Below are positions 2,367-12,606 of a DNA stretch of 63,308 nucleotides, one piece after another; the stretch's first letter is position 1, and every line of letters begins with the position of its first letter. The notes under the pieces are model-generated. The model did no database searches. It was not told the DNA's origin and saw nothing but the letters and a program-made list of their open reading frames with translations. Location of the stretch: NCBI GenBank assembly GCA_002281875.1, contig NCHN01000001.1, forward strand, positions 192,861 through 256,168, written 5' to 3'. The DNA is from Sphingobacteriia bacterium 24-36-13. GTDB lineage: Bacteria; Bacteroidota; Bacteroidia; Chitinophagales; Chitinophagaceae. A program made the translations under genes and the position numbers.

Positions 2367-2395
2367 TTTGATACGCCTTATTTATCGTAATTTTG
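2367..2395 (+). promoter_or_regulatory. Promoter of the tetR-led inositol lipid cluster
   Basis: TTTG (2367-2370), 17 bases, then TAATTTTG (2388-2395), a full match to TAnnTTTG; the spacer is shorter than the usual 19. The start codon of the TetR gene is 30 bases further on. Confidence 0.6.
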
Positions 2396-2419
2396 GACCA
2401 TAAAACCATTTTGGTCTAA
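2393..2419 (+). promoter_or_regulatory. Putative TetR operator (inverted repeat)
   Basis: TTGGACCA (2393-2400), 11 bases, then TGGTCTAA (2412-2419). The half-sites are complementary at 7 of 8 positions. The repeat overlaps the end of the -7 box and ends 6 bases before the TetR ATG, as expected for autorepression. The assignment to this TetR is inference. Confidence 0.55.
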
Positions 2420-2425
2420 AAGTTT

Positions 2426-3013
2426 ATGGTAAAAGAAGAGATTTTCAAAGAAGACATTATAAGGGAAGCGCAAAAGCTCTTCCAAACCTATGGTCTTAAG
2501 AAAACCACCATGGAAGATATTGCCAAAGCTTTAGGGAAGGGGAAAAGCACGCTATATTATTATTATCAAAGCAAGGAACAAATTTTTGAAGAAGTACTCC
2601 AAAAGGAACTTCAAGAAGTGTTTATTCAAACCCAATTTGCCGTTGAAACAGTTGATTCTGCCGAAGAAAAATTAAAGATTTTCGCTGTCACCAGAATTAA
2701 AGTTCTTAGCAATATGTTGAACTTGTACCGCTTGGTTTGTGGTGATTTTGTTGAACATGCATCTTGTGCTAAAGGCTTATTTAATGAATACTCTCAAAAG
2801 GAAATTAATTTGATTAAGTCCATTCTAGAATTTGGAATTAACTCAGGGGAGTTTAGTAAAGCACTAACTCAAGAAATGGATTTATTGCCTTCTGTAGTGG
2901 TAAGCAGTATCAGAGGCATTGAGCGCGACTTTTTTAATGATAAGTTGATTGGATTGGAGCATCGAATTGGCGCGATTTCTAATCTAATGGTAAATGGATT
3001 AAAAAATAAATAG
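2426..3013 (+). CDS. TetR/AcrR family transcriptional regulator
   Basis: 195 aa. The N-terminal TetR helix-turn-helix is clear at about residues 10-57: FQTYGLKKTTMEDIAKALG, then GKSTLYYYYQSKEQIF. The C-terminal helical ligand domain (about 70-190) is divergent, as in most of the family. It is the first gene of the same-strand inositol lipid cluster, 22 bases before inositol-phosphate synthase, so it probably controls those genes through the inverted repeat overlapping its promoter. The ligand is unknown; a lipid or fatty-acyl ligand is possible given the context but is not shown. Confidence 0.9.
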   Translation: MVKEEIFKEDIIREAQKLFQTYGLKKTTMEDIAKALGKGKSTLYYYYQSKEQIFEEVLQKELQEVFIQTQFAVETVDSAEEKLKIFAVTRIKVLSNMLNLYRLVCGDFVEHASCAKGLFNEYSQKEINLIKSILEFGINSGEFSKALTQEMDLLPSVVVSSIRGIERDFFNDKLIGLEHRIGAISNLMVNGLKNK

Positions 3014-3035
3014 TTAATATAAAAGGACACAGAAT

Positions 3036-4361
3036 ATGAAACAAAACATCGCCCCCGCAGAAGGGAAATTGGGCATCTTGATTCCTGGTTTAGGTGCCGT
3101 TGGTACAACCATGATAGCAGGTGTAATCGCAGTAAATAAAGGCTTATCTCAGCCTGTTGGTGCTTTAACCCAAATGGGAAATATTCGTATTGGAAAAAGA
3201 ACGGAAAATCGTTATCCGTTAATTAAAGACTTTGTGCCTCTGGCAAATTTAACGGACATCGTTTTTGGAGGATGGGATGTATATGCAGACAATGTTTTTG
3301 AAGCAGCTGCTAATGCAAAAGTGTTAGAGCCAATGTTATTACATGCGGTTAAACCAGAATTGGAAGCAATTAAGCCAATGAAAGCGGTTTTTGATCGTGA
3401 GTATGTAAAGAATTTAGATGGTACTCATATAAAAGAAGGGAAGTCTAAATACGATCTTGCAGAGCAAGTAATTAATGATATAGAGCAGTTCAAAAAAGAC
3501 AATGGATGCTCAAGAGTGGTGATTGTATGGTGTGGTTCAACTGAGAAATATATTGAAACTTCTGCTGTTCATGAAACACTTGAAGCTTTTGAAGCTGGTT
3601 TACATAATAGTGACCCCGCTATTGCTCCAAGTATGATTTATGCTTACGCTTCTCTTAAGTTAGGTATACCATTTGCTAATGGTGCGCCCAACTTAACAGT
3701 TGATATACCTGCTTTAGAGGAATTGGCAAAACAAACCCAAACTCCCATTGCAGGCAAAGACTTTAAAACTGGCCAAACTTTAATGAAGACCGTTTTAGCT
3801 CCTGGTTTACATGCAAGAGCTTTAGGAATTAGAGGGTGGTTTTCCACTAATATTTTAGGCAATAGAGATGGTTTAGTATTAGATGATCCAGATAATTTCA
3901 AAACTAAAGAAGTATCTAAACTAAGTGTATTAGAAGATATATTACAACCTGAAATTAATCCTGCTTTATATGGAGATTTATACCATAAAGTTAGAATTAA
4001 CTATTACCCTCCTCATGGTGACAATAAAGAGAGTTGGGATAATATTGATATTTTTGGTTGGTTGGGTTATTCCATGCAAATCAAGATCAACTTCTTGTGT
4101 CGCGATTCTATTTTAGCTGCTCCAATTGTATTAGATCTTGCTTTGTTTATGGACTTAGCTAAGCGTTCGAATATGAGTGGAATACAAGAGTGGTTATCTT
4201 TCTACTTTAAGTCTCCACAAACATTACCAGGGTTAAGACCAGAGCATGATATATTCAAACAACTTATTAAGTTGCAAAATACTTTGCGTCATATTATGGG
4301 TGAAGATTTAATCACACATCTTGGACTAGATTATTACCAAGATGTTGTGGAAGCTCTATGA
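3036..4361 (+). CDS. ino1: Inositol-3-phosphate synthase (MIPS)
   Basis: 441 aa. It converts D-glucose 6-phosphate to 1D-myo-inositol 3-phosphate with bound NAD. The N-terminal Rossmann loop is visible as GLGAVGTTMIAGVIAV (about residues 19-34). The family core near the end, IKINFLCRDSILAAP followed by LDLALFMDLAKRS, is the MIPS catalytic/tetramer region. The length fits the bacterial type. An AGGACA Shine-Dalgarno-like stretch precedes the ATG. Its stop overlaps the next gene's start by 4 bases (ATGA). This is the committed step of inositol supply, here tied to lipid genes rather than to mycothiol or catabolism. Confidence 0.93.
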   Translation: MKQNIAPAEGKLGILIPGLGAVGTTMIAGVIAVNKGLSQPVGALTQMGNIRIGKRTENRYPLIKDFVPLANLTDIVFGGWDVYADNVFEAAANAKVLEPMLLHAVKPELEAIKPMKAVFDREYVKNLDGTHIKEGKSKYDLAEQVINDIEQFKKDNGCSRVVIVWCGSTEKYIETSAVHETLEAFEAGLHNSDPAIAPSMIYAYASLKLGIPFANGAPNLTVDIPALEELAKQTQTPIAGKDFKTGQTLMKTVLAPGLHARALGIRGWFSTNILGNRDGLVLDDPDNFKTKEVSKLSVLEDILQPEINPALYGDLYHKVRINYYPPHGDNKESWDNIDIFGWLGYSMQIKINFLCRDSILAAPIVLDLALFMDLAKRSNMSGIQEWLSFYFKSPQTLPGLRPEHDIFKQLIKLQNTLRHIMGEDLITHLGLDYYQDVVEAL

Positions 4362-4810
4362 TAAAATTACACCAAATACTGACCAGCTTTTTTGGGATTG
4401 GATTTATCTCAAAGGGGGGCGGAACCGTGGCAGCTATTGCAACATGCTTTATATGGTTTGTTGCAATAGCCGAGCCCAATTCTTTGCTTACTATTCTAAT
4501 AACAATACTAGTTACACTATATGGTGTATGGGGTGCTAATCAAGTAGAAGCTAGTTGGGGTAAAGACAGCAGCAAAGTGGTTATTGATGAAGTTGCTGGG
4601 ATGATGATTTCTTTATTGTTTGTTCCTATCACTGAAGTAAATCTACTAGTGGCTTTAATCTTGTTTCGATTTTTTGACATTACAAAGCCATTATTAATTC
4701 ATAAGCTAGAAAATTGGCCAAAGGGTTGGGGTGTAATGGGTGACGATGTATTAGCTGGCATCTATAGCAATGTTGTTTTACAATTATTAATCTACTTTAA
4801 TATATGGTAA
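4358..4810 (+). CDS. PgpA-family lipid phosphatase, probable phosphatidylinositol-phosphate phosphatase
   Basis: 150 aa, with four hydrophobic segments as in PgpA. The PgpA signatures are GFISKGGGTVAA near residue 15 and VIDEVAGMMIS near residue 74, which supply the acidic metal-binding site. PgpA normally converts phosphatidylglycerophosphate to phosphatidylglycerol. Between inositol-phosphate synthase and a CDP-alcohol phosphotransferase, the likely substrate is phosphatidylinositol phosphate, as in the Bacteroides thetaiotaomicron inositol lipid cluster. Substrate choice is inference from context. The gene overlaps both neighbours (4 and 7 bases), so translation is probably coupled. Confidence 0.85.
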   Translation: MIKLHQILTSFFGIGFISKGGGTVAAIATCFIWFVAIAEPNSLLTILITILVTLYGVWGANQVEASWGKDSSKVVIDEVAGMMISLLFVPITEVNLLVALILFRFFDITKPLLIHKLENWPKGWGVMGDDVLAGIYSNVVLQLLIYFNIW

Positions 4811-5181
4811 AGCCTGTTTTCATAAAAGCCCAAGCTTCATCGCTTATTGCATCTGCTACTGACTTTGCTGTAACTGTTTTTTTGGTTGAAGTAATTCATT
4901 TGTTGGCAATTGTTGCTGCTGCTATTGGTACAATTACTGGTGGGGTAGTAAATTTTTTGTTGGGTAGGAATTGGGTATTTAAAGCAGGATCATCTCCAAT
5001 TCCTAAACAAGCATTTCGCTATTTATTGGTTTGGATTGGTAGTTTTTTTTTGAATATAGTCGGTATGGCATTTATGATCAACTTAATTCATGCCAATTAT
5101 ATTTTTTCTAAAATATTAATATCCCTTTTAGTAGGTTTTTTTTACAATTACTTATTACAAGGTAAATACGTTTTTAAATAA
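4804..5181 (+). CDS. GtrA family membrane protein
   Basis: 125 aa with four predicted membrane helices. Typical GtrA features are the FAVTVFLVEVIHLLA first helix, GGVVNFLLGRNWVF in the middle, and NYLLQGKYVFK at the end. GtrA proteins are thought to move polyprenyl-linked sugars or to support glycosyltransferases. Inside this cluster it is a candidate for moving inositol lipid precursors or a glycosylated derivative across the inner membrane (inference). It overlaps the PgpA gene by 7 bases and is followed after 9 bases by DUF5686. Confidence 0.85.
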   Translation: MVKPVFIKAQASSLIASATDFAVTVFLVEVIHLLAIVAAAIGTITGGVVNFLLGRNWVFKAGSSPIPKQAFRYLLVWIGSFFLNIVGMAFMINLIHANYIFSKILISLLVGFFYNYLLQGKYVFK

Positions 5182-5190
5182 ATAGGGTCT

Positions 5191-7749
5191 ATGAAAGACA
5201 AAATAGGTTTTAAAATATTTGCTTCATTATTAATGATGCTATTTATAACCACAATCAGTGCACAAGAAACGGTTGTTAAGGGGATTGTAGTTGACTCACT
5301 CACCAAACGTCCTTTACAAGGGGTTAGTGTGTTTTTTTTAAAAGGTAGAGGAGTGGTTACAGATAGCTTAGGCCGCTATATGATTATTACCAATACGTCC
5401 ATCAATAAAGTTGTAGTGTCATCGGTAGGTTTTAGGCAAGTACAATTTACCGTTGGTAGGTACAAAATGCAGGAAATAAATATTGAATTAGGCCCAGATC
5501 CTGCGCTACTAACTAATGTAACAGTTAGTACAAATAAACGAGCTAAATATAGAAACAAAGACAATCCAGCTGTTGAGTTGATTCGTAATGTTATTGAAAA
5601 TAGAGAAAATAATAGAACAGCCAGTTATGATTACGTGGAATATGAACAATACGAAAAAATTCAGGCCGCATTAAGTAATTCAAACGATAAAGTCACTAAT
5701 TCTAAATTTCTTAAAAAGTATAATTTCTTATTTGAAAACAGAGATAGTTCTAAATTGAATGGCAAAATTTTGATGCCTATTTATATGGAGGAGCGTCTTT
5801 CAAAACAATATTTGCGAAAAGACCCTTCTGCAACTAAGTCTTTTATTTTAGGGGAGAAAAAAGTTAACTACGGAAGCTATATTGATAATGAAGGGTTAAG
5901 TTCTTTATTAAATCGTTTATACGAAAACATTGATATCTATGAAAATAATATTCCCATATTCGCTTATCAATTTTTGAGCCCCATCGCTAATGCCGCTCCA
6001 ACTTTCTATATGTATTATATACGGGATACCATTACAGATGAGTATGGAACCAAGTTGGTGAAAATGTATTTTACTCCACGTAACACGAATGACTTACTTT
6101 TTAGAGGTAATATGTACATCACTTTAGATGGAAATTATGCTGTCCAGAAAATTAATATGTTTATCAGCAGAAATGCAAATATCAATTGGGTCAAAGAATT
6201 GTATGCTGATTTAGATTTTGAAAGGGGAGAAGATAAACGCTATCATTTAGTTAAGAGTAATCTGATGGCAGATATGGGTTTAAGTAAAAGCAGTACTAGT
6301 GGTGGTTTTTTTGGGGAACGTACTGTTTCATACAAAGGATTTACAACCAACAATAAACGGCCGGATAGTTTATATCAAGGCCCTTCAATAGTTAGAAATG
6401 ACGAAGTAATTACAAAAATGCCTGATAGTTTTTGGATAGCTAAAAGACATAACCCTTTGACTGTTCCTGAATCTAAAGTTTACAGCAATATTGATAGTTT
6501 AGAAAAAATGCCTTCATTTAGAAGAACCATGGCATTGTTTACTTTATTATTTGCTGGTTACGGAAATTTAGGACCTGTAGAAATTGGACCAGTAAATACT
6601 TTCTATAGTTTTAATCCAGTAGAAGGATTCCGTTTGCGTGTTGGCGGTAGAACTACCCCGGCAATGAGTAAGCGTTTGTATTTTGAAACATATGGTGCAT
6701 ATGGTTTTAATGATAAACAATGGAAAGGTTTTTTAAGTGCAACTTATTCACTCAATAATAAGTCTATCTATACTTTTCCAATGAATTATATCAGGATTAG
6801 TGCCCAAAGTGATACCAAGATTCCTGGTCAAGATTTAGAGTTTGTACAAGAAGACAACTTCCTACTTTCATTTAAAAGAGGAAATAATGAACGTTGGTTG
6901 TATAACAATATTTATCAGGCTGAATTTGTAAAAGAATTCAAGAGCAGATTTTCTTATAGTATTGGGCTTAAAAATTGGCATCAACAACCTGCAGGAATTT
7001 TGACTTATACTAAAAGCAATAATGGTATTCCTGAAAACATTCAAAATGTAATTACTACAGAGTTAAATGCTCAAGTAAGATGGGCGCCCAATGAAAAATT
7101 CTATCAGGGTAAAATTTATCGTATACCCATTTTTACAAAATACCCCATTTTTACATTAAGTGCCGCTGCTGGTGTTAAAGGATTTTTGGGTGGACAATAC
7201 AATTACCAAAAACTTGATTTAAGAATAGAGAAGCGTAATTACATGGGCAGATTGGGTTATGCAGATGCTACATTAGAAGGCGGTTATACATTTGGTCAAG
7301 TTCCTTTTCCTTTGTTAACGGTGCATAGAGCCAACCAAACTTTTGCCTATCAGTTGAACTCTTACAATATGATGAATTTCTTAGAATTTGTAAGTGATCG
7401 CTATGCATCATTTACATGGGTTCAGCATTTTATGGGTATAGTTTTTAATAGAATTCCATTATTAAAAAAGTTGAAATTTAGAGAAGTTGCTTCTTTTAAA
7501 ATTTTATATGGGGGGGTAAGAAATGAAAACAATCCAGTGTTGAATCCTTCCTTGTTTGCCTATCCAACTATTAATGGGGTTACTTCAACTTTTGCCTTAG
7601 ATCCGGCGAAGCCATATATAGAAACAAGTGTTGGTGTAGAAAATATATTGAATATTTTAAGGGTAGACTTTGTAAAAAGATTGAGTTATTTAGACAATCC
7701 GGGCATATCACCTTATGGGATTAGAACAAGATTTAGGTTTGATTTTTAA
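5191..7749 (+). CDS. DUF5686 family outer-membrane protein with carboxypeptidase-regulatory domain
   Basis: 852 aa. A signal peptide covers about residues 1-25, ending ISAQ. A CarboxypepD_reg-like beta-sandwich follows at about 28-110 (GIVVDSLTKRPLQGVSVFF, then a TDSLGRY turn). The long DUF5686 region is rich in alternating aromatic residues and ends in RTRFRFDF. A terminal Phe is typical of outer-membrane barrels, so outer-membrane location is likely. DUF5686 proteins are widespread in Bacteroidota and uncharacterised. Here it lies in the middle of the inositol lipid genes, which suggests a role in handling the lipid at the outer membrane, but a chance placement is not excluded. Confidence 0.8.
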   Translation: MKDKIGFKIFASLLMMLFITTISAQETVVKGIVVDSLTKRPLQGVSVFFLKGRGVVTDSLGRYMIITNTSINKVVVSSVGFRQVQFTVGRYKMQEINIELGPDPALLTNVTVSTNKRAKYRNKDNPAVELIRNVIENRENNRTASYDYVEYEQYEKIQAALSNSNDKVTNSKFLKKYNFLFENRDSSKLNGKILMPIYMEERLSKQYLRKDPSATKSFILGEKKVNYGSYIDNEGLSSLLNRLYENIDIYENNIPIFAYQFLSPIANAAPTFYMYYIRDTITDEYGTKLVKMYFTPRNTNDLLFRGNMYITLDGNYAVQKINMFISRNANINWVKELYADLDFERGEDKRYHLVKSNLMADMGLSKSSTSGGFFGERTVSYKGFTTNNKRPDSLYQGPSIVRNDEVITKMPDSFWIAKRHNPLTVPESKVYSNIDSLEKMPSFRRTMALFTLLFAGYGNLGPVEIGPVNTFYSFNPVEGFRLRVGGRTTPAMSKRLYFETYGAYGFNDKQWKGFLSATYSLNNKSIYTFPMNYIRISAQSDTKIPGQDLEFVQEDNFLLSFKRGNNERWLYNNIYQAEFVKEFKSRFSYSIGLKNWHQQPAGILTYTKSNNGIPENIQNVITTELNAQVRWAPNEKFYQGKIYRIPIFTKYPIFTLSAAAGVKGFLGGQYNYQKLDLRIEKRNYMGRLGYADATLEGGYTFGQVPFPLLTVHRANQTFAYQLNSYNMMNFLEFVSDRYASFTWVQHFMGIVFNRIPLLKKLKFREVASFKILYGGVRNENNPVLNPSLFAYPTINGVTSTFALDPAKPYIETSVGVENILNILRVDFVKRLSYLDNPGISPYGIRTRFRFDF

Positions 7750-7793
7750 ATTGAATTCGTCCTTATTCAAGAATGCGTTAAATAAAATTATTA

Positions 7794-8525
7794 ATGAACC
7801 AGCCAAAGCCCAAATTTAGAGACAAAGCACAACAAATGATCTATGTGGTCATTAACCCACTGGTTAAGTTTTTAATCAAATTAGGATTAACTCCCAATGC
7901 AGTTACATTAATTGGCTTGTTATTGAATATTTTAGTTACAGCTATTTTTATTGAAGGAGCAGAGAAAGGCCATAGAGGGGAATTAAGTTATATAGGTTGG
8001 GCAGGGGCAATGGTTTTATTTGCCGGTGTTTTTGATATGTTGGATGGACAAGTAGCAAGGCTCGGAAAAATGTCATCTTCTTTTGGGGCATTATTTGATT
8101 CAGTATTAGATAGATACAGTGAGTTAGTATTATTTTTAGGCATATGTTATTACCTTATCTCTCATCATTATTTCTATAGTTCCTTATTTGCTTTTATTGC
8201 TATGATTGGTTCTTTGATGGTAAGCTATACCAGAGCAAGAGCTGAAGGATTAGGAGTTGAATGTAAAGAAGGTTTAATGCAAAGGCCAGAAAGAGTAATA
8301 ACCATTGGCGTTACTGCTATTGCATGTGGCATTACTTCGTATTTTATTGGCGGTGAGTACAAAGTTTATTTACCTGGAACAAGCGTGCAAATATTTGAGA
8401 CTATTTCTGTATTTACGATTCCTTTGACTATTATGGCGATACTTACTAATTATACCGCTTTTAAAAGGTTGATTGATGCTAAAGCAGCGCTGGATTTAAA
8501 AGACAAGAATAAACAAGTTGATTAA
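7794..8525 (+). CDS. CDP-alcohol phosphotransferase, probable phosphatidylinositol-phosphate synthase
   Basis: 243 aa integral membrane enzyme. The full catalytic motif DGxxARx8GxxxDxxxD is present: it starts at LDGQVARLGK (about residue 83) and ends at LFDSVLDRYSE. The family displaces CMP from CDP-diacylglycerol with an alcohol. Next to inositol-3-phosphate synthase and a PgpA phosphatase, the acceptor is most likely inositol 3-phosphate, giving phosphatidylinositol phosphate. Phosphatidylglycerophosphate or archaetidyl-type acceptors are less likely alternatives. It follows DUF5686 by 44 bases. Confidence 0.88.
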   Translation: MNQPKPKFRDKAQQMIYVVINPLVKFLIKLGLTPNAVTLIGLLLNILVTAIFIEGAEKGHRGELSYIGWAGAMVLFAGVFDMLDGQVARLGKMSSSFGALFDSVLDRYSELVLFLGICYYLISHHYFYSSLFAFIAMIGSLMVSYTRARAEGLGVECKEGLMQRPERVITIGVTAIACGITSYFIGGEYKVYLPGTSVQIFETISVFTIPLTIMAILTNYTAFKRLIDAKAALDLKDKNKQVD

Positions 8526-8554
8526 TTGCGTGTTGATTTAAAGATAAATTGAAA

Positions 8555-9124
8555 ATGATTTTCGGAAGAATGAGAAAGTTTTATGTTTTACTTGGTTTTG
8601 TTTTAATGCAAATAAATGGGAATGCGAATACTTCTATTAATACTGAGCCGCAGGATACTTTCCCTGTTCCTGTTAATATAAAAAACCAGCTATTTTATTT
8701 GCAAAGAACTACCAATACCAATACGGTTGTTTATGCTTTAAATATCAACGAAAAAGGGGTGCTAGATGAGTCAACGCCAGTAAGAGTTTTTTGGATACGT
8801 TATCCAGAAGGAGGTATGCAGAAAGACTTGAACTTTATTCAAAAAGCATTTGCTTATGGAACCATTTCTAAGAAAAACAAAGATGGTACCTTTACCATTC
8901 AATTAGTGGCTTACAAGAAAAAGGAATTTATATTAAAGAAATCGGCTCTAGATAATACCTATAAATTATATACACTTATTAATAATAAAGAATCGGAAAT
9001 TAAACGAATTTTTATCAAGATAGATCCAGGCGGTACTTTGTTTAATCCCAATATAGCTTATGTGGAAATGAAGGGGAAGGAGGCGAGCAACAATAAGCCT
9101 ATCATGGAAAGATTCAAACCCTAA
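8555..9124 (+). CDS. Secreted DUF4833 family protein
   Basis: 189 aa from the ATG at 8555; a TTG at 8549 and an ATG at 8570 are alternatives. The N-terminus is a signal peptide (FYVLLGFVLMQINGNANT). The mature part is beta-rich, with VRVFWIRYPEGGMQKDLN and a late IFIKIDPGGTLFNPNIAYVE segment, in the style of DUF4833. I know no biochemical function. It sits between the phosphotransferase and the Aur1-like gene, with gaps of 29 and 13 bases, so it is probably cotranscribed and a good candidate for an envelope component of the inositol lipid pathway. Confidence 0.65.
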   Translation: MIFGRMRKFYVLLGFVLMQINGNANTSINTEPQDTFPVPVNIKNQLFYLQRTTNTNTVVYALNINEKGVLDESTPVRVFWIRYPEGGMQKDLNFIQKAFAYGTISKKNKDGTFTIQLVAYKKKEFILKKSALDNTYKLYTLINNKESEIKRIFIKIDPGGTLFNPNIAYVEMKGKEASNNKPIMERFKP

Positions 9125-9137
9125 TTGAAAAGCAACT

Positions 9138-10061
9138 ATGCCAATCAATAAAAAAAAGATTAAAGCATCTTTATTAGTTCTACTTTTTTCGGTAGGATAT
9201 TTACTATTGTCTTATTTTTTAATCGGATTTAAGTCGGACCAACTGATTTTAGTGGGGCTATTTAATTTCATGTATTATTTATCTGAAGTAACTAGAAAAT
9301 TCATATTAGGCTTTATCGTTTTTATTGTTTTCTGGATCATTTTCGATTACATGAAAGCATTCCCTAATTATGAATTTAATACTGTTAGTATTAACGAATT
9401 ATATGAATTAGAAAAAAGCATTTTTGGATTTAAATTTAATGGGGGAGTAGTAACCCCAAATGAATTTTGGTTGCTTCAGCATACCAATGCATTAGATATT
9501 GTGTCGGGTATTTTTTATTTAAGTTGGATACCTGTTCCACTCATATTTGCAGGGGTATTATTTTTTTATAGAAAAAGGGAATTTTTTTATTTCTCCTTAA
9601 CTTTCTTGCTGGTTAATTTAATAGGGTTCTGTATTTACTATATTTATCCTGCAGCACCTCCATGGTATGTGCAGCAATATGGATTCGATTTCATTGCAAA
9701 TACAAAGGGTAATACTGCTGGGCTTTCTAGGTTCGATGCGTATTTTGGTGTAGAGATATTTAAAGGGCTTTACGAAAAAAGCTCCAATGTTTTTGCTGCA
9801 ATGCCTTCTCTGCATTCCTCTTATCCACTCATTGTTTTGTATTATGGAATACGTAATAAGTTGGGCTGGATTAATATTATACTGGCGGTTGTAACAGTAG
9901 GAATTTGGTTTGCCGCTGTGTACAGTAGTCACCACTATGTTTTAGATGTGCTTGCTGGTATCGCTTGTGCGTTAACTGGAATTTGGTTATTTCAAAAGTT
10001 ATTGCATACAAAAGGTTGGGTGCATAATGCTATTGAAAAAGCCGTGCGAGCACTTAGTTAA
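9138..10061 (+). CDS. Aur1-like PAP2 membrane protein, probable inositol phosphorylceramide synthase
   Basis: 307 aa with about six membrane helices. PAP2/Aur1 catalytic motifs are visible: YPAAPPWYVQQYG mid-protein, AAMPSLHSSYP (MPSLH at 222-226), and SSHHYVLDVLAG (263-274) with the His and Asp of the triad. Aur1-type enzymes transfer phosphoinositol from phosphatidylinositol to ceramide and release diacylglycerol. Placement at the end of the inositol cluster supports this. A general lipid phosphatase is the alternative. The last 8 bases overlap the convergent gene on the other strand. Confidence 0.8.
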   Translation: MPINKKKIKASLLVLLFSVGYLLLSYFLIGFKSDQLILVGLFNFMYYLSEVTRKFILGFIVFIVFWIIFDYMKAFPNYEFNTVSINELYELEKSIFGFKFNGGVVTPNEFWLLQHTNALDIVSGIFYLSWIPVPLIFAGVLFFYRKREFFYFSLTFLLVNLIGFCIYYIYPAAPPWYVQQYGFDFIANTKGNTAGLSRFDAYFGVEIFKGLYEKSSNVFAAMPSLHSSYPLIVLYYGIRNKLGWINIILAVVTVGIWFAAVYSSHHYVLDVLAGIACALTGIWLFQKLLHTKGWVHNAIEKAVRALS

Positions 10062-10674
10062 AAGGTGCACAAATTCTTTTTGCAACTGGAACAATAAGAA
10101 AAGGAAAAACAAAAGCTGCAATGACATCTATGGTATAATGCACATGTTGAATCAATACCAAAATTCCTACAGTAATTGCCCCTGTAAAAACAATTAGTTG
10201 ATCTCTTTTAGTTTTTAAGCACAACGCTAAACAAACTAATGTTGCTGTATGGCCCGAAAAGAATAAATCTTTGGTAATAAATTTTGCTCCATAAAAACTA
10301 TTGGTGATGGGGTCTATTAATTCTATTAAGTCCTTGGGTGGTTCTAAAGGAACCAAATAAATACTGATAATTCTTGAAATAGATAATAGGTTAAACCCCC
10401 AAATGATTAGCAGTATCAAGGTAGGGTCTTTAAAACCTTTAAATAAATACCATAAGCATAAAGACCAAATAATGATAAATGTTGGGATAGATACGTTAGC
10501 ACTTTTAATGAAGTCTAAAACAAGGTCGTTTAATACAATACCTTTTCTTGCTTCAATAAAAGCAAAATAATAGGGGAGGAAAGCAATTAATAAAACCAAT
10601 AGCAACAATCCGCCTGCCAATTTGTTACGAAATAATTTATTTCGTAAATATTGGCTCCAAAGCATCTTAGTCAT
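10054..10674 (-). CDS. Sphingomyelin-synthase-like PAP2_C membrane protein
   Basis: 206 aa with about six hydrophobic segments. Motifs characteristic of the sphingomyelin synthase branch are DLFFSGHTATL (SGHT at 140-143) and QHVHYTIDVIAA (His 179, Asp 183), which complete a His-His-Asp triad. This branch moves a phospho-head group between a glycerophospholipid and a ceramide or diacylglycerol. In bacteria the substrate is unknown. It is tail to tail with the Aur1-like gene, overlapping 8 bases, and 15 bases downstream of NagB–PIG-L on the same strand. Its role may be a second sphingolipid head-group reaction or a lipid phosphatase. Confidence 0.72.
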   Translation of the reverse strand: MTKMLWSQYLRNKLFRNKLAGGLLLLVLLIAFLPYYFAFIEARKGIVLNDLVLDFIKSANVSIPTFIIIWSLCLWYLFKGFKDPTLILLIIWGFNLLSISRIISIYLVPLEPPKDLIELIDPITNSFYGAKFITKDLFFSGHTATLVCLALCLKTKRDQLIVFTGAITVGILVLIQHVHYTIDVIAAFVFPFLIVPVAKRICAPFN

Positions 10675-10689
10675 TCGGCAAAAGTATGG

Positions 10690-12606
10690 CTAGTAATGCC
10701 AACGAACAAATGCTTCCATTGCGGCATATTTAGTCATTCCAAGTGCAGCATATAAATTGGCCGTATTGGCGTTTCTATCTTCCGCTCTTTGCCAAAATTC
10801 TCTATTGTCAGCACCTTGAAATGGAACCATGTCTTTTTGTGATTGATGGATAAATATGCCAAAGCGTTTTTTCTTGACTTGATCTGGACTCATTGGAATG
10901 GCCATTTCAATTTCAGCAATATCCCATTCTTGCCATGCACCTTTGTACAACCAAACCCAACAGTCTTTAATCCAGTCATCACCTGCAGCTTTGATCCGCC
11001 TAAGCGCCTCAAAAACCGCTTCTAAACAGACCCTATGAGTGCCATGTGGATCTGCTAAATCTCCCGCACAGTAAACCTGATGTGGTTTTAGTTTCCGCAG
11101 CAATTCCATGGTGATCAAAATATCTTCTTCGCCCAATGGCTTTTTTTCAATGGTCCCAGTTTCATAGAAAGGCATATTCATAAAATGCCAACGACCTTCA
11201 GGTAATCCTACATATCTGCAAGTAGCTTTGGCTTCACCTCTTCTGATTAAACCTTTAACAGCCCTGATTTCTCTAGTATCCATTTGGTCTTTCTTCTTTG
11301 AAGAAATAAATTGTTCAGCAGAAGAAAGTTGCTCAATACTCTTACTATTGTCCATTCCAAACATCTCTTCAAATCCCACTGCAAAATCAATAAAACGGGT
11401 CACAAATTCGTCGGTAACCGCAATATTCCCGCTGGTTTGATAAGCTACATGTACTTCATGACCTTGGTCGTGTAAGCGCATAAACGTTCCACCCATACTA
11501 ATGATATCATCGTCTGGATGTGGTGAAAATATTAAACAACGTTTAGGATGAGGTTCAGAGCGTTCAGGGTGTGCCGGAATAACTGCATTTGGCTTTCCAC
11601 CTGGCCATCCAGTAATGGTATCCCTAAGCATATAAAACACTTGAAGGTTTATTTCATACGCATCATCTTGTTCTACTAGTAAATCTGATAAACCATTTTC
11701 GGTATAATCTAGGCTGGTTAAGCTAAGTACCGATTTATTGAGCTTAAGTGCCAGGTTAACCACTGCTCTTTTAATCATGGCATCGGTCCAAACACAATCC
11801 CCAGTTAACCATGGCGATTTTATTCTCGTAAGTTCTGTAGAAGCCGCTTGGTCAATTATAAATGTACAGTCGTTGTGTTGCTGTAAAATACTTGCAGGAA
11901 TGCTTTCTGTAACGTTTCCTTCTACTGACTTTGCTACAATACTTGCTTTGTTTCCCCAAGCCAATAAAATAATTTTCTTTGCTTTTAAAATACTACTGAT
12001 ACCCATAGTAACGGCCAATCTGGGAACTTTGGTAATCGTTTCAAACTCGTAAGAATTAGCCAATCGAGTACTGTTCTCTAAATTAACTAATCTTGTTTTA
12101 GACAAAATGCTTGATCCAGGCTCATTGAACCCAATATGCCCATTCTGTCCAATTCCCAAAATTTGTAAATCTATGCCGCCTGCAGCTTCAATGGCTTGTT
12201 CATAAGAGGCACAGTAATTTTTCATTTCTGCTTTTGGGGCATTTCCATTAGGCAAATGAATGTTTTTTGGATCAATATCAATATGGTTAAATAAGTTACG
12301 ATGCATAAAGCTCCAATAGCTTTGGTAGGCATCTTTATCTATTGGATAGTACTCATCTAAATTAAAAGTGATTACATTTTTAAAGCTCAATCCTTCTTCA
12401 CGATGCATTCTAACTAATTCTGCATACATTTTAATAGGAGTAGACCCTGTAGCCATGCCTAGTACAACCATTTCTCCTTTGGAAGCTTTTTGTTTAATTA
12501 AACTAGCAATTTGTTGGGCTGCATAAACAGAGCCCTCTACTGCCGTTGGATAAATTTTGACTTCAATCTTCTCAAATGAGTCTACCATATTTAACTTGTT
12601 TTGCAT
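10690..12606 (-). CDS. nagB: Glucosamine-6-phosphate deaminase fused to a PIG-L deacetylase
   Basis: 638 aa two-domain protein. Residues about 10-260 are NagB: GMATGSTPIKMY, FNLDEYYPID and GIGQNGHIGFNEPG cover the sugar-phosphate and catalytic sites. This domain turns glucosamine 6-phosphate into fructose 6-phosphate and ammonia. From about residue 375 a PIG-L / LmbE zinc deacetylase follows, with FSPHPDDDIISMGG and a later DPHGTHRVC. The fusion could deacetylate and then deaminate GlcNAc 6-phosphate, although the PIG-L substrate is not shown. The layout is known in Bacteroidota. It lies 59 bases after a GH20 gene on the same strand, so it joins chitin or glycan GlcNAc release to glycolysis. 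Confidence 0.9.
   Translation of the reverse strand: MQNKLNMVDSFEKIEVKIYPTAVEGSVYAAQQIASLIKQKASKGEMVVLGMATGSTPIKMYAELVRMHREEGLSFKNVITFNLDEYYPIDKDAYQSYWSFMHRNLFNHIDIDPKNIHLPNGNAPKAEMKNYCASYEQAIEAAGGIDLQILGIGQNGHIGFNEPGSSILSKTRLVNLENSTRLANSYEFETITKVPRLAVTMGISSILKAKKIILLAWGNKASIVAKSVEGNVTESIPASILQQHNDCTFIIDQAASTELTRIKSPWLTGDCVWTDAMIKRAVVNLALKLNKSVLSLTSLDYTENGLSDLLVEQDDAYEINLQVFYMLRDTITGWPGGKPNAVIPAHPERSEPHPKRCLIFSPHPDDDIISMGGTFMRLHDQGHEVHVAYQTSGNIAVTDEFVTRFIDFAVGFEEMFGMDNSKSIEQLSSAEQFISSKKKDQMDTREIRAVKGLIRRGEAKATCRYVGLPEGRWHFMNMPFYETGTIEKKPLGEEDILITMELLRKLKPHQVYCAGDLADPHGTHRVCLEAVFEALRRIKAAGDDWIKDCWVWLYKGAWQEWDIAEIEMAIPMSPDQVKKKRFGIFIHQSQKDMVPFQGADNREFWQRAEDRNANTANLYAALGMTKYAAMEAFVRWHY

Follow-up and report, generated by a model that had tools for sequence, protein, structure and literature searches.

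In this work, we found that a 63,308-nucleotide stretch of DNA (the window) from a Sediminibacterium-like organism very probably carries an operon for inositol lipids, headed and repressed by a TetR-family regulator and leading from glucose 6-phosphate through phosphatidylinositol (PI) to inositol phosphorylceramide (IPC). The block consists of eight uninterrupted open reading frames (ORFs) on the forward strand (2367..10061), as found in an ORF check of the window, and all eight proteins exceed the Pfam gathering score. From the TetR gene to the PAP2_3 gene, the intergenic gaps are 22, -4, -7, 9, 44, 23, and 13 bp. Since no gap exceeds 44 bp, "operon-like", the term used in an earlier sequence-only reading of this DNA, is a fair label, and the eight genes are presumably co-transcribed. 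The search for conserved neighborhoods suggested in that reading met the same gene order in relatives; this repetition indicates that the order is not due to chance. PI and IPC are the likely products, as the four enzyme genes match the pathway encoded by BT_1522-1526 of Bacteroides thetaiotaomicron.

Predicted synthesis of phosphatidylinositol

The gene for myo-inositol-1(3)-phosphate synthase (MIPS; 3036..4361, forward strand; PF07994/PF01658, 349.4 and 115.1 bits) encodes an enzyme of the Bacteroidetes type, as judged from its best PDB match (7nwr, which is BT_1526; 1.1e-165 over 1-424), and would convert glucose 6-phosphate to myo-inositol phosphate. The CDP-alcohol phosphotransferase (7794..8525, forward strand; CDP-OH_P_transf, 65.9 bits) is a phosphatidylinositol-phosphate synthase (PIPS) of the BT_1523 type, scoring 377.8 bits against NF052561 (PIPSynBT1523; cut-off 350) and matching the PDB structures 6wm5 (2.2e-18) and 6h53 (4.5e-18). 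Its motif DMLDGQVARLGKMSSSFGALFDSVLD (DX2DGX2AR...GX3DX3D) is intact, as had been claimed, and was present in 78/78 loci with a called PIPS ORF among the 80 named loci that we examined out of 548 relatives. This enzyme is predicted to join myo-inositol phosphate and CDP-diacylglycerol into PI-phosphate, from which a PgpA-family protein (4358..4810, forward strand; PF04608, 132.9 bits, 1e-38), probably a PI-phosphate phosphatase of the BT_1525 type, would remove the phosphate to yield PI. The proposed route from glucose 6-phosphate to PI is supported by homology and motifs, but the PI-phosphate intermediate had been left out of it. PI-phosphate is likewise an intermediate of the published B. 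thetaiotaomicron pathway, where the CDP-alcohol enzyme forms it and the PgpA-like protein then takes off the phosphate (PMC9246714).

A probable IPC synthase and the supply of ceramide

The last gene of the block (9138..10061, forward strand; PAP2_3, PF14378, 90.2 bits, 1.9e-25) encodes an AUR1-like PAP2 protein, probably an inositol phosphorylceramide (PI-dihydroceramide) synthase, which would transfer phosphoinositol from PI to ceramide and release IPC and diacylglycerol. Its match to the NCBIfam equivalog NF052609 (phosphoinositol dihydroceramide synthase; 1.6e-100) reaches 336.4 bits, below the cut-off of 480, and for this reason the protein is filed as AUR1-like rather than as the equivalog; the same model is matched by all 21 members of the set A1 (best 1.2e-104). 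The Aur1-like identity assigned earlier agrees with the PDB match to AUR1 (9vj3; 1.8e-14, residues 43-285) and with H226, H266, and D270, which are invariant in 21 aligned sequences; the His/His/Asp pattern occurs in 79/80 of the named loci. The catalytic motifs of both PIPS and the PAP2 protein are intact.

Ceramide would come from a separate gene run. The genome to which the window belongs encodes a serine palmitoyltransferase (SPT) that passes the curated cut-off of NF047600 (661.1 bits against 640) and is followed by GNAT and SDR genes, and this run is located on another contig, outside the window and unlinked to the inositol block. Calling the cluster "complete" leaves the ceramide backbone out of account. 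Among the genomes with the IPC synthase, an SPT above the cut-off was found in 18/21 of the family sample (7/96 of the others) and in 12/14 of the phylum sample (6/381 of the others), and the Fisher values for this co-occurrence ignore kinship. Together with homology, motifs, and gene knockouts in B. thetaiotaomicron described in two studies (PMC9246714, PMC8791184), the SPT linkage in relatives supports the proposed sequence from glucose 6-phosphate through PI to IPC.

In 34/65 loci, the gene directly ahead of the IPC synthase gene is fatty-acid-hydroxylase-like (PF04116 in both cases tested). This arrangement is consistent with a ceramide product, and hydroxylated IPC is predicted where the hydroxylase gene is present. 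The window's own genome encodes three PF04116 proteins that score over the cut-off and one below; the search for an orthologue of the supercluster hydroxylase gave no clear one there (best match 27% identity, E 0.002).

A TetR regulator and its putative operator

The TetR-family regulator gene (2426..3013, forward strand; PF00440, the TetR_N DNA-binding domain, 55.2 bits, 6e-15) heads the operon in the window's lineage, behind a 31-bp near-palindromic block, TTTTGGACC-N13-GGTCTAAAA (2391..2421, forward strand), that conservation marks as a probable TetR operator. Mean pairwise identity of this block is 0.87 over 15 loci, compared with 0.28-0.38 in three upstream and 0.53 in one downstream flanking 31-bp windows. 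The 15 loci that contain the operator pattern are also those from which it was built; with up to three mismatches, the pattern matches once in the window's own genome (reversed control 0), and it was absent from 100 shuffles of the window. The block overlaps a candidate Bacteroidota -7 promoter element, TAATTTTG (2388..2395, forward strand), and TA-N-TTTTGG is present in 15/15 aligned upstream regions; the Bacteroidota -7 consensus is TAnnTTTG. A scan for sigma-70-type promoters was uninformative (39 found, 39.4 expected). The conserved block lies inside the span covered by the sequence-only reading, where it had been missed.

We propose that the 31-bp block is probably an autoregulatory operator and that TetR most likely represses the operon, including its own gene, by binding this promoter-overlapping site, presumably under the control of a ligand. 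The operon offers a testable regulator together with a putative operator.

Alternative explanations

It is rather unlikely that the TetR protein is an ordinary neighbor, such as an efflux regulator, that exerts no control over the operon and has in the 31-bp block only its own promoter. Other clusters do have TetR-like genes with 27-45% identity in their vicinity, at differing positions, and the block is near the TetR start codon, such that its conservation may partly reflect a promoter. However, the TetR gene lies 22 bp ahead of MIPS on the same strand, and in 14 of the 80 named loci MIPS comes immediately after a TetR more than 50% identical; in these, the TetR-plus-block arrangement is found at two kinds of chromosomal site. 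Moreover, the conservation spans the full 31 bp, 7-8 of 9 arm positions are complementary in the seven sequences checked, and allowing up to three mismatches uncovered no second copy of the block in the genome to which the window belongs. Repression of the operon by TetR is thus the reading that we retain.

The chemistry of the pathway invites two further alternatives. One is that the block makes PI and that IPC is not its main end product, with the PAP2 protein using a non-ceramide acceptor or hydrolyzing PI. The score below the equivalog cut-off favors this, as does the lack of an over-cut-off SPT in 3/21 (family sample) and 2/14 (phylum sample) of the IPC-synthase genomes, one of which (G035) is in both samples; in such genomes, another acceptor may be used and the synthase may accept a non-ceramide substrate. 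We nevertheless consider it very unlikely overall, given that the SPT gene lies less than 12 kb from the IPC synthase gene (6.5-11.7 kb, same contig) in 15 of the 18 family genomes with both, a linkage that supports an IPC product, that the window's own genome has an SPT, that AUR1 provides the only PDB sequence matches of the PAP2 protein up to E 1, and that the hydroxylase-like gene so often stands ahead of the synthase. The other alternative, in which the organism relies on the PgpA-like protein as its general phosphatidylglycerophosphate phosphatase and the location within the operon is of secondary importance, appears highly improbable. This protein is the sole PF04608 match in the genome, so a role in phosphatidylglycerol synthesis, instead or in addition, is conceivable, and one of two studies reports that no BT1525 mutant was obtained (PMC8791184). 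Against this, loss of BT_1525 in the other study led to accumulation of PI-phosphate with other glycerophospholipids unaffected (PMC9246714). Furthermore, PF04608 occurs in 4/14 control genomes, the Bacteroidota control Bacteroides ihuae not being among them, and PgpA is kept in the neighborhood at 54/65 loci. IPC formation via PI, with PgpA as the PI-phosphate phosphatase, therefore remains the preferred interpretation.

Accessory genes and modular placement

The remaining genes encode a GtrA-family membrane protein of the BT_1524 type (4804..5181, forward strand; PF04138, 59.8 bits, 3.7e-16), a DUF5686 protein with an N-terminal CarbopepD_reg_2 domain (5191..7749, forward strand; PF18939, 166.5 bits, 1.2e-48; PF13715, 37.7 bits, 2.1e-9), and a DUF4833 protein (8549..9124, forward strand; PF16117, 150 bits, 6.2e-44) whose listed start is TTG, with an ATG at 8555. 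The DUF5686 and DUF4833 genes are found in 62/65 and 57/65 loci, respectively, making them candidate pathway members. The predicted structure of DUF4833 (pLDDT 85.5) is mostly beta and gave no confident match in the PDB, and no stretch of the protein looked membrane-like in a simple hydropathy scan; its N-terminus leads us to guess that it is exported. The three proteins probably act in transport or surface placement of the product.

The whole block is inserted in a gene neighborhood that is unbroken in other genomes (three relatives), and in this respect it behaves as a module. It lies between PAP2_C and PhyH genes in three loci, one of which (L089) also has Omp85 on the PhyH side, as do intact loci, and NagB adjoins PAP2_C in 10/20 loci. 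The sphingomyelin-synthase-like PAP2_C gene of the window (10054-10674; PF14360, 36.3 bits, cut-off 27) belongs to the host locus rather than to the inositol system. Restriction of PAP2_C to ceramide producers was rejected: 59/67 positive genomes are without an over-cut-off SPT, although three of them (G183, G228, and G432) have a weaker match to the SPT model (502-526 bits). A bolder view, which we regard as doubtful, is that the segment from TetR to the IPC synthase is a transferable, self-regulating module that moves as a unit from one chromosomal site to another with its own regulator and operator and uses whatever ceramide the recipient supplies, with GtrA, DUF5686, and DUF4833 forming an outer-membrane export line for inositol lipids.

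Distribution and comparison with known systems

The IPC synthase was found in a minority of genomes overall (21/117 in the family sample and 14/395 in the phylum sample). The pathway occurs in many environmental genera, including Sediminibacterium, Pontibacter, Mucilaginibacter, and Spirosoma, and thus extends beyond the host-associated Bacteroidetes that a published survey emphasizes. The literature searched yielded no lipid data for this organism, and no title or abstract opening describing the operon or supercluster was found in searches on inositol phosphoceramide with 2-hydroxylase, SPT-inositol clusters in Pedobacter/Mucilaginibacter, Sediminibacterium/Chitinophagaceae lipids, bacterial CPE synthase, or DUF4833/DUF5686/GtrA with inositol. 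The catalytic activities in this host, and the lipids themselves, are predictions from sequence.

Two comparisons with PDB entries concern single enzymes. The PAAPPWY, PSLHS, and HHY-D regions of the yeast IPC synthase AUR1 (fungal entries 9vj3 and 9ivc) align with the PAP2 protein of the window, which is shorter and bacterial. For the mycobacterial-type PIP synthase (6wm5, 6h53), the catalytic motif and the RPER region align with the window's enzyme (2.2e-18), which, unlike its mycobacterial-type counterpart, shares a run with an IPC synthase.

Runs with the order SPT-GNAT-SDR-MIPS-PgpA-GtrA-DUF5686-PIPS-DUF4833-fatty-acid hydroxylase-IPC synthase share their core order with the window. Examples are loci L094 (Pontibacter lucknowensis) and L095 (Rufibacter hautae), and shorter forms are found in Mucilaginibacter and Pedobacter. 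Runs of the Pontibacter/Rufibacter type hold the ceramide genes and often the hydroxylase, whereas the window's organism has its ceramide genes elsewhere and no close hydroxylase match. The fusion with ceramide synthesis genes in many relatives is genetic evidence for an IPC product.

The closest characterized counterpart is the BT_1522-BT_1526 cluster (Heaver et al., 2022, PMC9246714; Sartorio et al., 2022, PMC8791184), which has MIPS, PgpA-like, GtrA, PIP synthase, and AUR1-like synthase genes in one run. There, both lipids disappeared on loss of BT_1526, BT_1523, or BT_1525, the BT_1522 mutant was deprived of IPC but not of PI, and complementation succeeded for three of the four mutants, BT_1526 being the exception (PMC9246714); the results for BT1522, BT1523, and BT1526 agree in the second study (PMC8791184). 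The sequence-only reading had listed GtrA and DUF5686 as extra genes. On the same descriptions, BT_1524 is itself a GtrA protein, and both known Bacteroidetes clusters reportedly have a carboxypeptidase-regulatory-like gene (BT_1527 homologue) nearby, so GtrA is no addition and DUF5686 probably is none either; the likeness of DUF5686 to BT_1527 is at the level of the CarbopepD_reg_2 domain only. TetR, with the operator-like block at the head, and DUF4833, located between the PIP synthase and IPC synthase genes, do appear as additions relative to the cluster as described. Further differences are the environmental host and an IPC synthase below the NF052609 cut-off. The pathway chemistry had been established before in a gut bacterium, so the block is a well-supported relative of that cluster rather than a new system.

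Gene Content and Conserved Motifs

The eight cluster genes (2367..10061) are all intact on the plus strand of the window, and each passed its Pfam cut-off. The gaps from the TetR gene to the inositol phosphorylceramide (IPC) synthase gene are, in order, 22, -4, -7, 9, 44, 23, and 13 bp, which bears out the operon-like run described in the sequence-only reading. The window represents bases 192861-256168 of contig C37 in a 3.07-Mb assembly (89 contigs, 99.86% complete). In a scan of named genomes from which the window's own record may have been omitted, the closest named relative among the matches listed was a Sphingobacteriia MAG (IPC synthase 99% identical), followed by named Sediminibacterium; on this basis, we regard the source organism as Sediminibacterium-like (family Chitinophagaceae).

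The MIPS matched PDB 7nwr (1.1e-165), the solved BT_1526 structure (PMC9246714). The CDP-alcohol enzyme (PIPS) passed the NCBIfam model PIPSynBT1523 (377.8 vs. a cut-off of 350) and also matched phosphatidylinositol-phosphate (PIP) synthase structures in the PDB. Its motif DX2DGX2AR...GX3DX3D, previously called intact, is indeed kept, as it is in 78/78 loci with a called PIPS ORF among the 80 loci retained from our scan. The PAP2 protein matched AUR1 structures (1.8e-14), and H226, H266, and D270, which we take from the PAP2 and AUR1 literature to be catalytic, were invariant in 21 aligned family members; the pattern PSLH...HHY-D was found in 79/80 loci. The loss of catalytic motifs on alignment, raised earlier as a possible objection, was not observed in these two enzymes. 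This protein scored below the NCBIfam equivalog cut-off for IPC synthase (336.4 vs. 480), and the window's E-value to that model (1.6e-100) is hardly worse than the best among the 21 aligned members (1.2e-104).

Gene Neighborhoods in Relatives

The scan of named genomes with the IPC synthase returned at least 548 relatives, of which the best 80 were kept. Neighborhoods were compared in the 65 loci with at least 9.9 kb before this gene (the other 15 were excluded), counting matches anywhere within each locus. PIPS was present in all 65, DUF5686 in 62, MIPS in 58, DUF4833 in 57, PgpA in 54, and GtrA in 51. GNAT (40) and SDR (36) genes were also common, and serine palmitoyltransferase (SPT) was found in at least 38/65 loci with a 350-bit filter, an undercount because of that filter and because the flank often cuts SPT. 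The long form of the cluster is SPT-GNAT-SDR-MIPS-PgpA-GtrA-DUF5686-PIPS-DUF4833-hydroxylase-IPCS. Its fatty-acid-hydroxylase-like gene occurred in 35/65 loci, with 34 directly before the IPC synthase (L094:9343-9963 and 33 others), and is a candidate ceramide fatty-acid hydroxylase; PF04116 was confirmed in the two loci tested (L092 and L094).

Upstream of the cluster, the closest relatives carry an additional DUF4833-like gene (L082:727-1251, L083:690-1250, L084:644-1207, and L085:619-1206), 31-37% identical to the cluster copy; PF16117 was confirmed for that of L082. Also, a contig labelled as a Desulfobacterales MAG (L141) carries MIPS-PgpA-PIPS-IPCS, reflecting either horizontal transfer or mis-binning.

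Ceramide Supply

By gene content, the window's organism is predicted to make ceramide. Another contig of its genome (C24) encodes an SPT over the curated cut-off (661.1 vs. 640; top PDB hit, the serine palmitoyltransferase 8guh at 7.4e-155), followed by a GNAT-like gene and an SDR gene that would provide N-acylation and reduction, respectively. A protein closely related to cysteate-C-fatty acyltransferase is encoded in the same genome (L029:1378-2637; 28eh, 1.1e-178), so sulfonolipids may well be produced alongside sphingolipids.

Among 117 family genomes, 24 had IPC synthase matches at E 0.001, of which 21 were counted after leaving out the weakest (G021, G049, and G115; E 3.7e-5 to 7.4e-4). 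Over-cut-off SPT was found in 25 genomes, together with IPC synthase in 18 and without it in seven. In 15 of those 18, match coordinates placed the two genes 6.5-11.7 kb apart on the same contig; they are on different contigs in the window's own genome and G104, and >800 kb apart in G004. IPC synthase occurred without over-cut-off SPT in G035, G060, and G096. Across the 395 phylum genomes, 14 had IPC synthase, 18 had over-cut-off SPT, and 12 had both; G359 joins those three family genomes as IPC-synthase-positive without over-cut-off SPT. Fisher values for this co-occurrence are descriptive only because the genomes are related.

A Predicted TetR Operator

In 14 named loci, MIPS is immediately preceded by a TetR gene >50% identical to that of the window. 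Alignment of the regions upstream of these TetR genes with that of the window revealed a 31-bp block, TTTTGGACC-N13-GGTCTAAAA (window 2391-2421), with a mean pairwise identity of 0.87 across the 15 loci. The three preceding 31-bp windows had identities of 0.28, 0.34, and 0.38, and the following one, which reaches into the gene, had 0.53. Among seven diverged loci, the block again had 0.87 (0.31 and 0.34 before, 0.50 after). The derived pattern matched exactly in 12/14 named loci (not L084 and L109), and, with up to three mismatches allowed, gave one match in the window's own genome. Overlapping the block is TAnTTTTG, which fits the Bacteroidota -7 promoter consensus. A TetR dimer bound here would occlude the promoter of the operon to which its gene belongs, making TetR a probable autoregulator. 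The nearest NCBIfam model of this TetR is a FadR-type fatty-acid regulator, scoring 47.5, below the cut-off of 200.

The Block as a Module

A PAP2_C gene on the minus strand (10054-10674) terminates against the IPC synthase gene; its sphingomyelin-synthase-like product carries the motifs SGHT and HYTIDV. PAP2_C is present in 67/395 phylum genomes, often with NagB and PhyH-SDR genes, and Pfam matches place it elsewhere in another unit, NagB-PAP2_C-Omp85-PhyH-SDR. In 20 hand-picked carrier genomes (8.7-12.5 kb fetched each), NagB was found in 10, PhyH and SDR in nine, and Omp85 in seven. This unit, which may be a lipid-modifying cassette, recurs in Chitinophagaceae (window 10054-12606, minus strand; L215, L217, L220, L221, L226, and L227); in the window and its closest kin, the stretches examined yielded neither PhyH nor SDR. 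The unit is whole in two genomes of the window's own genus, G087 (L217), which has no IPC synthase, and G489 (L227), which has one on a different contig.

L089 reads NagB-PAP2_C-[TetR to IPCS]-Omp85-PhyH-SDR, with the block between PAP2_C and Omp85 and the order otherwise intact. L124 and L125 have the block flanked by PAP2_C on one side and PhyH-SDR on the other, and the stretches fetched there yielded no Omp85 gene. In a second group (L103, L109, L128, L136, and L139), the TetR-headed block occupies a different chromosomal site. From these gene orders and the second site, we conclude that everything between the operator and the stop codon of the IPC synthase gene, both included, behaves as one unit, to which the PAP2_C gene is a bystander.

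Comparison With Known Inositol-Lipid Clusters

As noted earlier, a related cluster is characterized in Bacteroides thetaiotaomicron, where deletions assign MIPS to BT_1526, PIP synthase to BT_1523, PIP phosphatase to BT_1525, and PI-dihydroceramide synthase to BT_1522 (PMC9246714, PMC8791184). When BT_1524 (GtrA) was deleted, one of the two studies saw no change in inositol lipids by TLC and the other saw reduced IPC (PMC9246714, PMC8791184). A carboxypeptidase-regulatory-like gene (BT_1527 homologue) is reported to lie near both known Bacteroidetes clusters (PMC9246714). Since BT_1524 is itself a GtrA gene, GtrA is not the extra that the sequence-only reading took it for, and the DUF5686 gene, whose protein begins with a carboxypeptidase-regulatory-like domain and so resembles BT_1527 at domain level, is probably not an extra either. 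TetR and DUF4833 do count as additions, neither being mentioned as a cluster member in the parts of the two reports consulted (PMC9246714, PMC8791184).

The predicted inositol-lipid chemistry of the block is ordinary, already known, and well supported, and the setting is less expected. Compared with the long form, the cluster in the window's lineage is headed by TetR instead; compared with B. thetaiotaomicron, as far as those reports describe its cluster, the block additionally holds TetR and DUF4833. What is new relative to the known chemistry is regulatory and modular detail.
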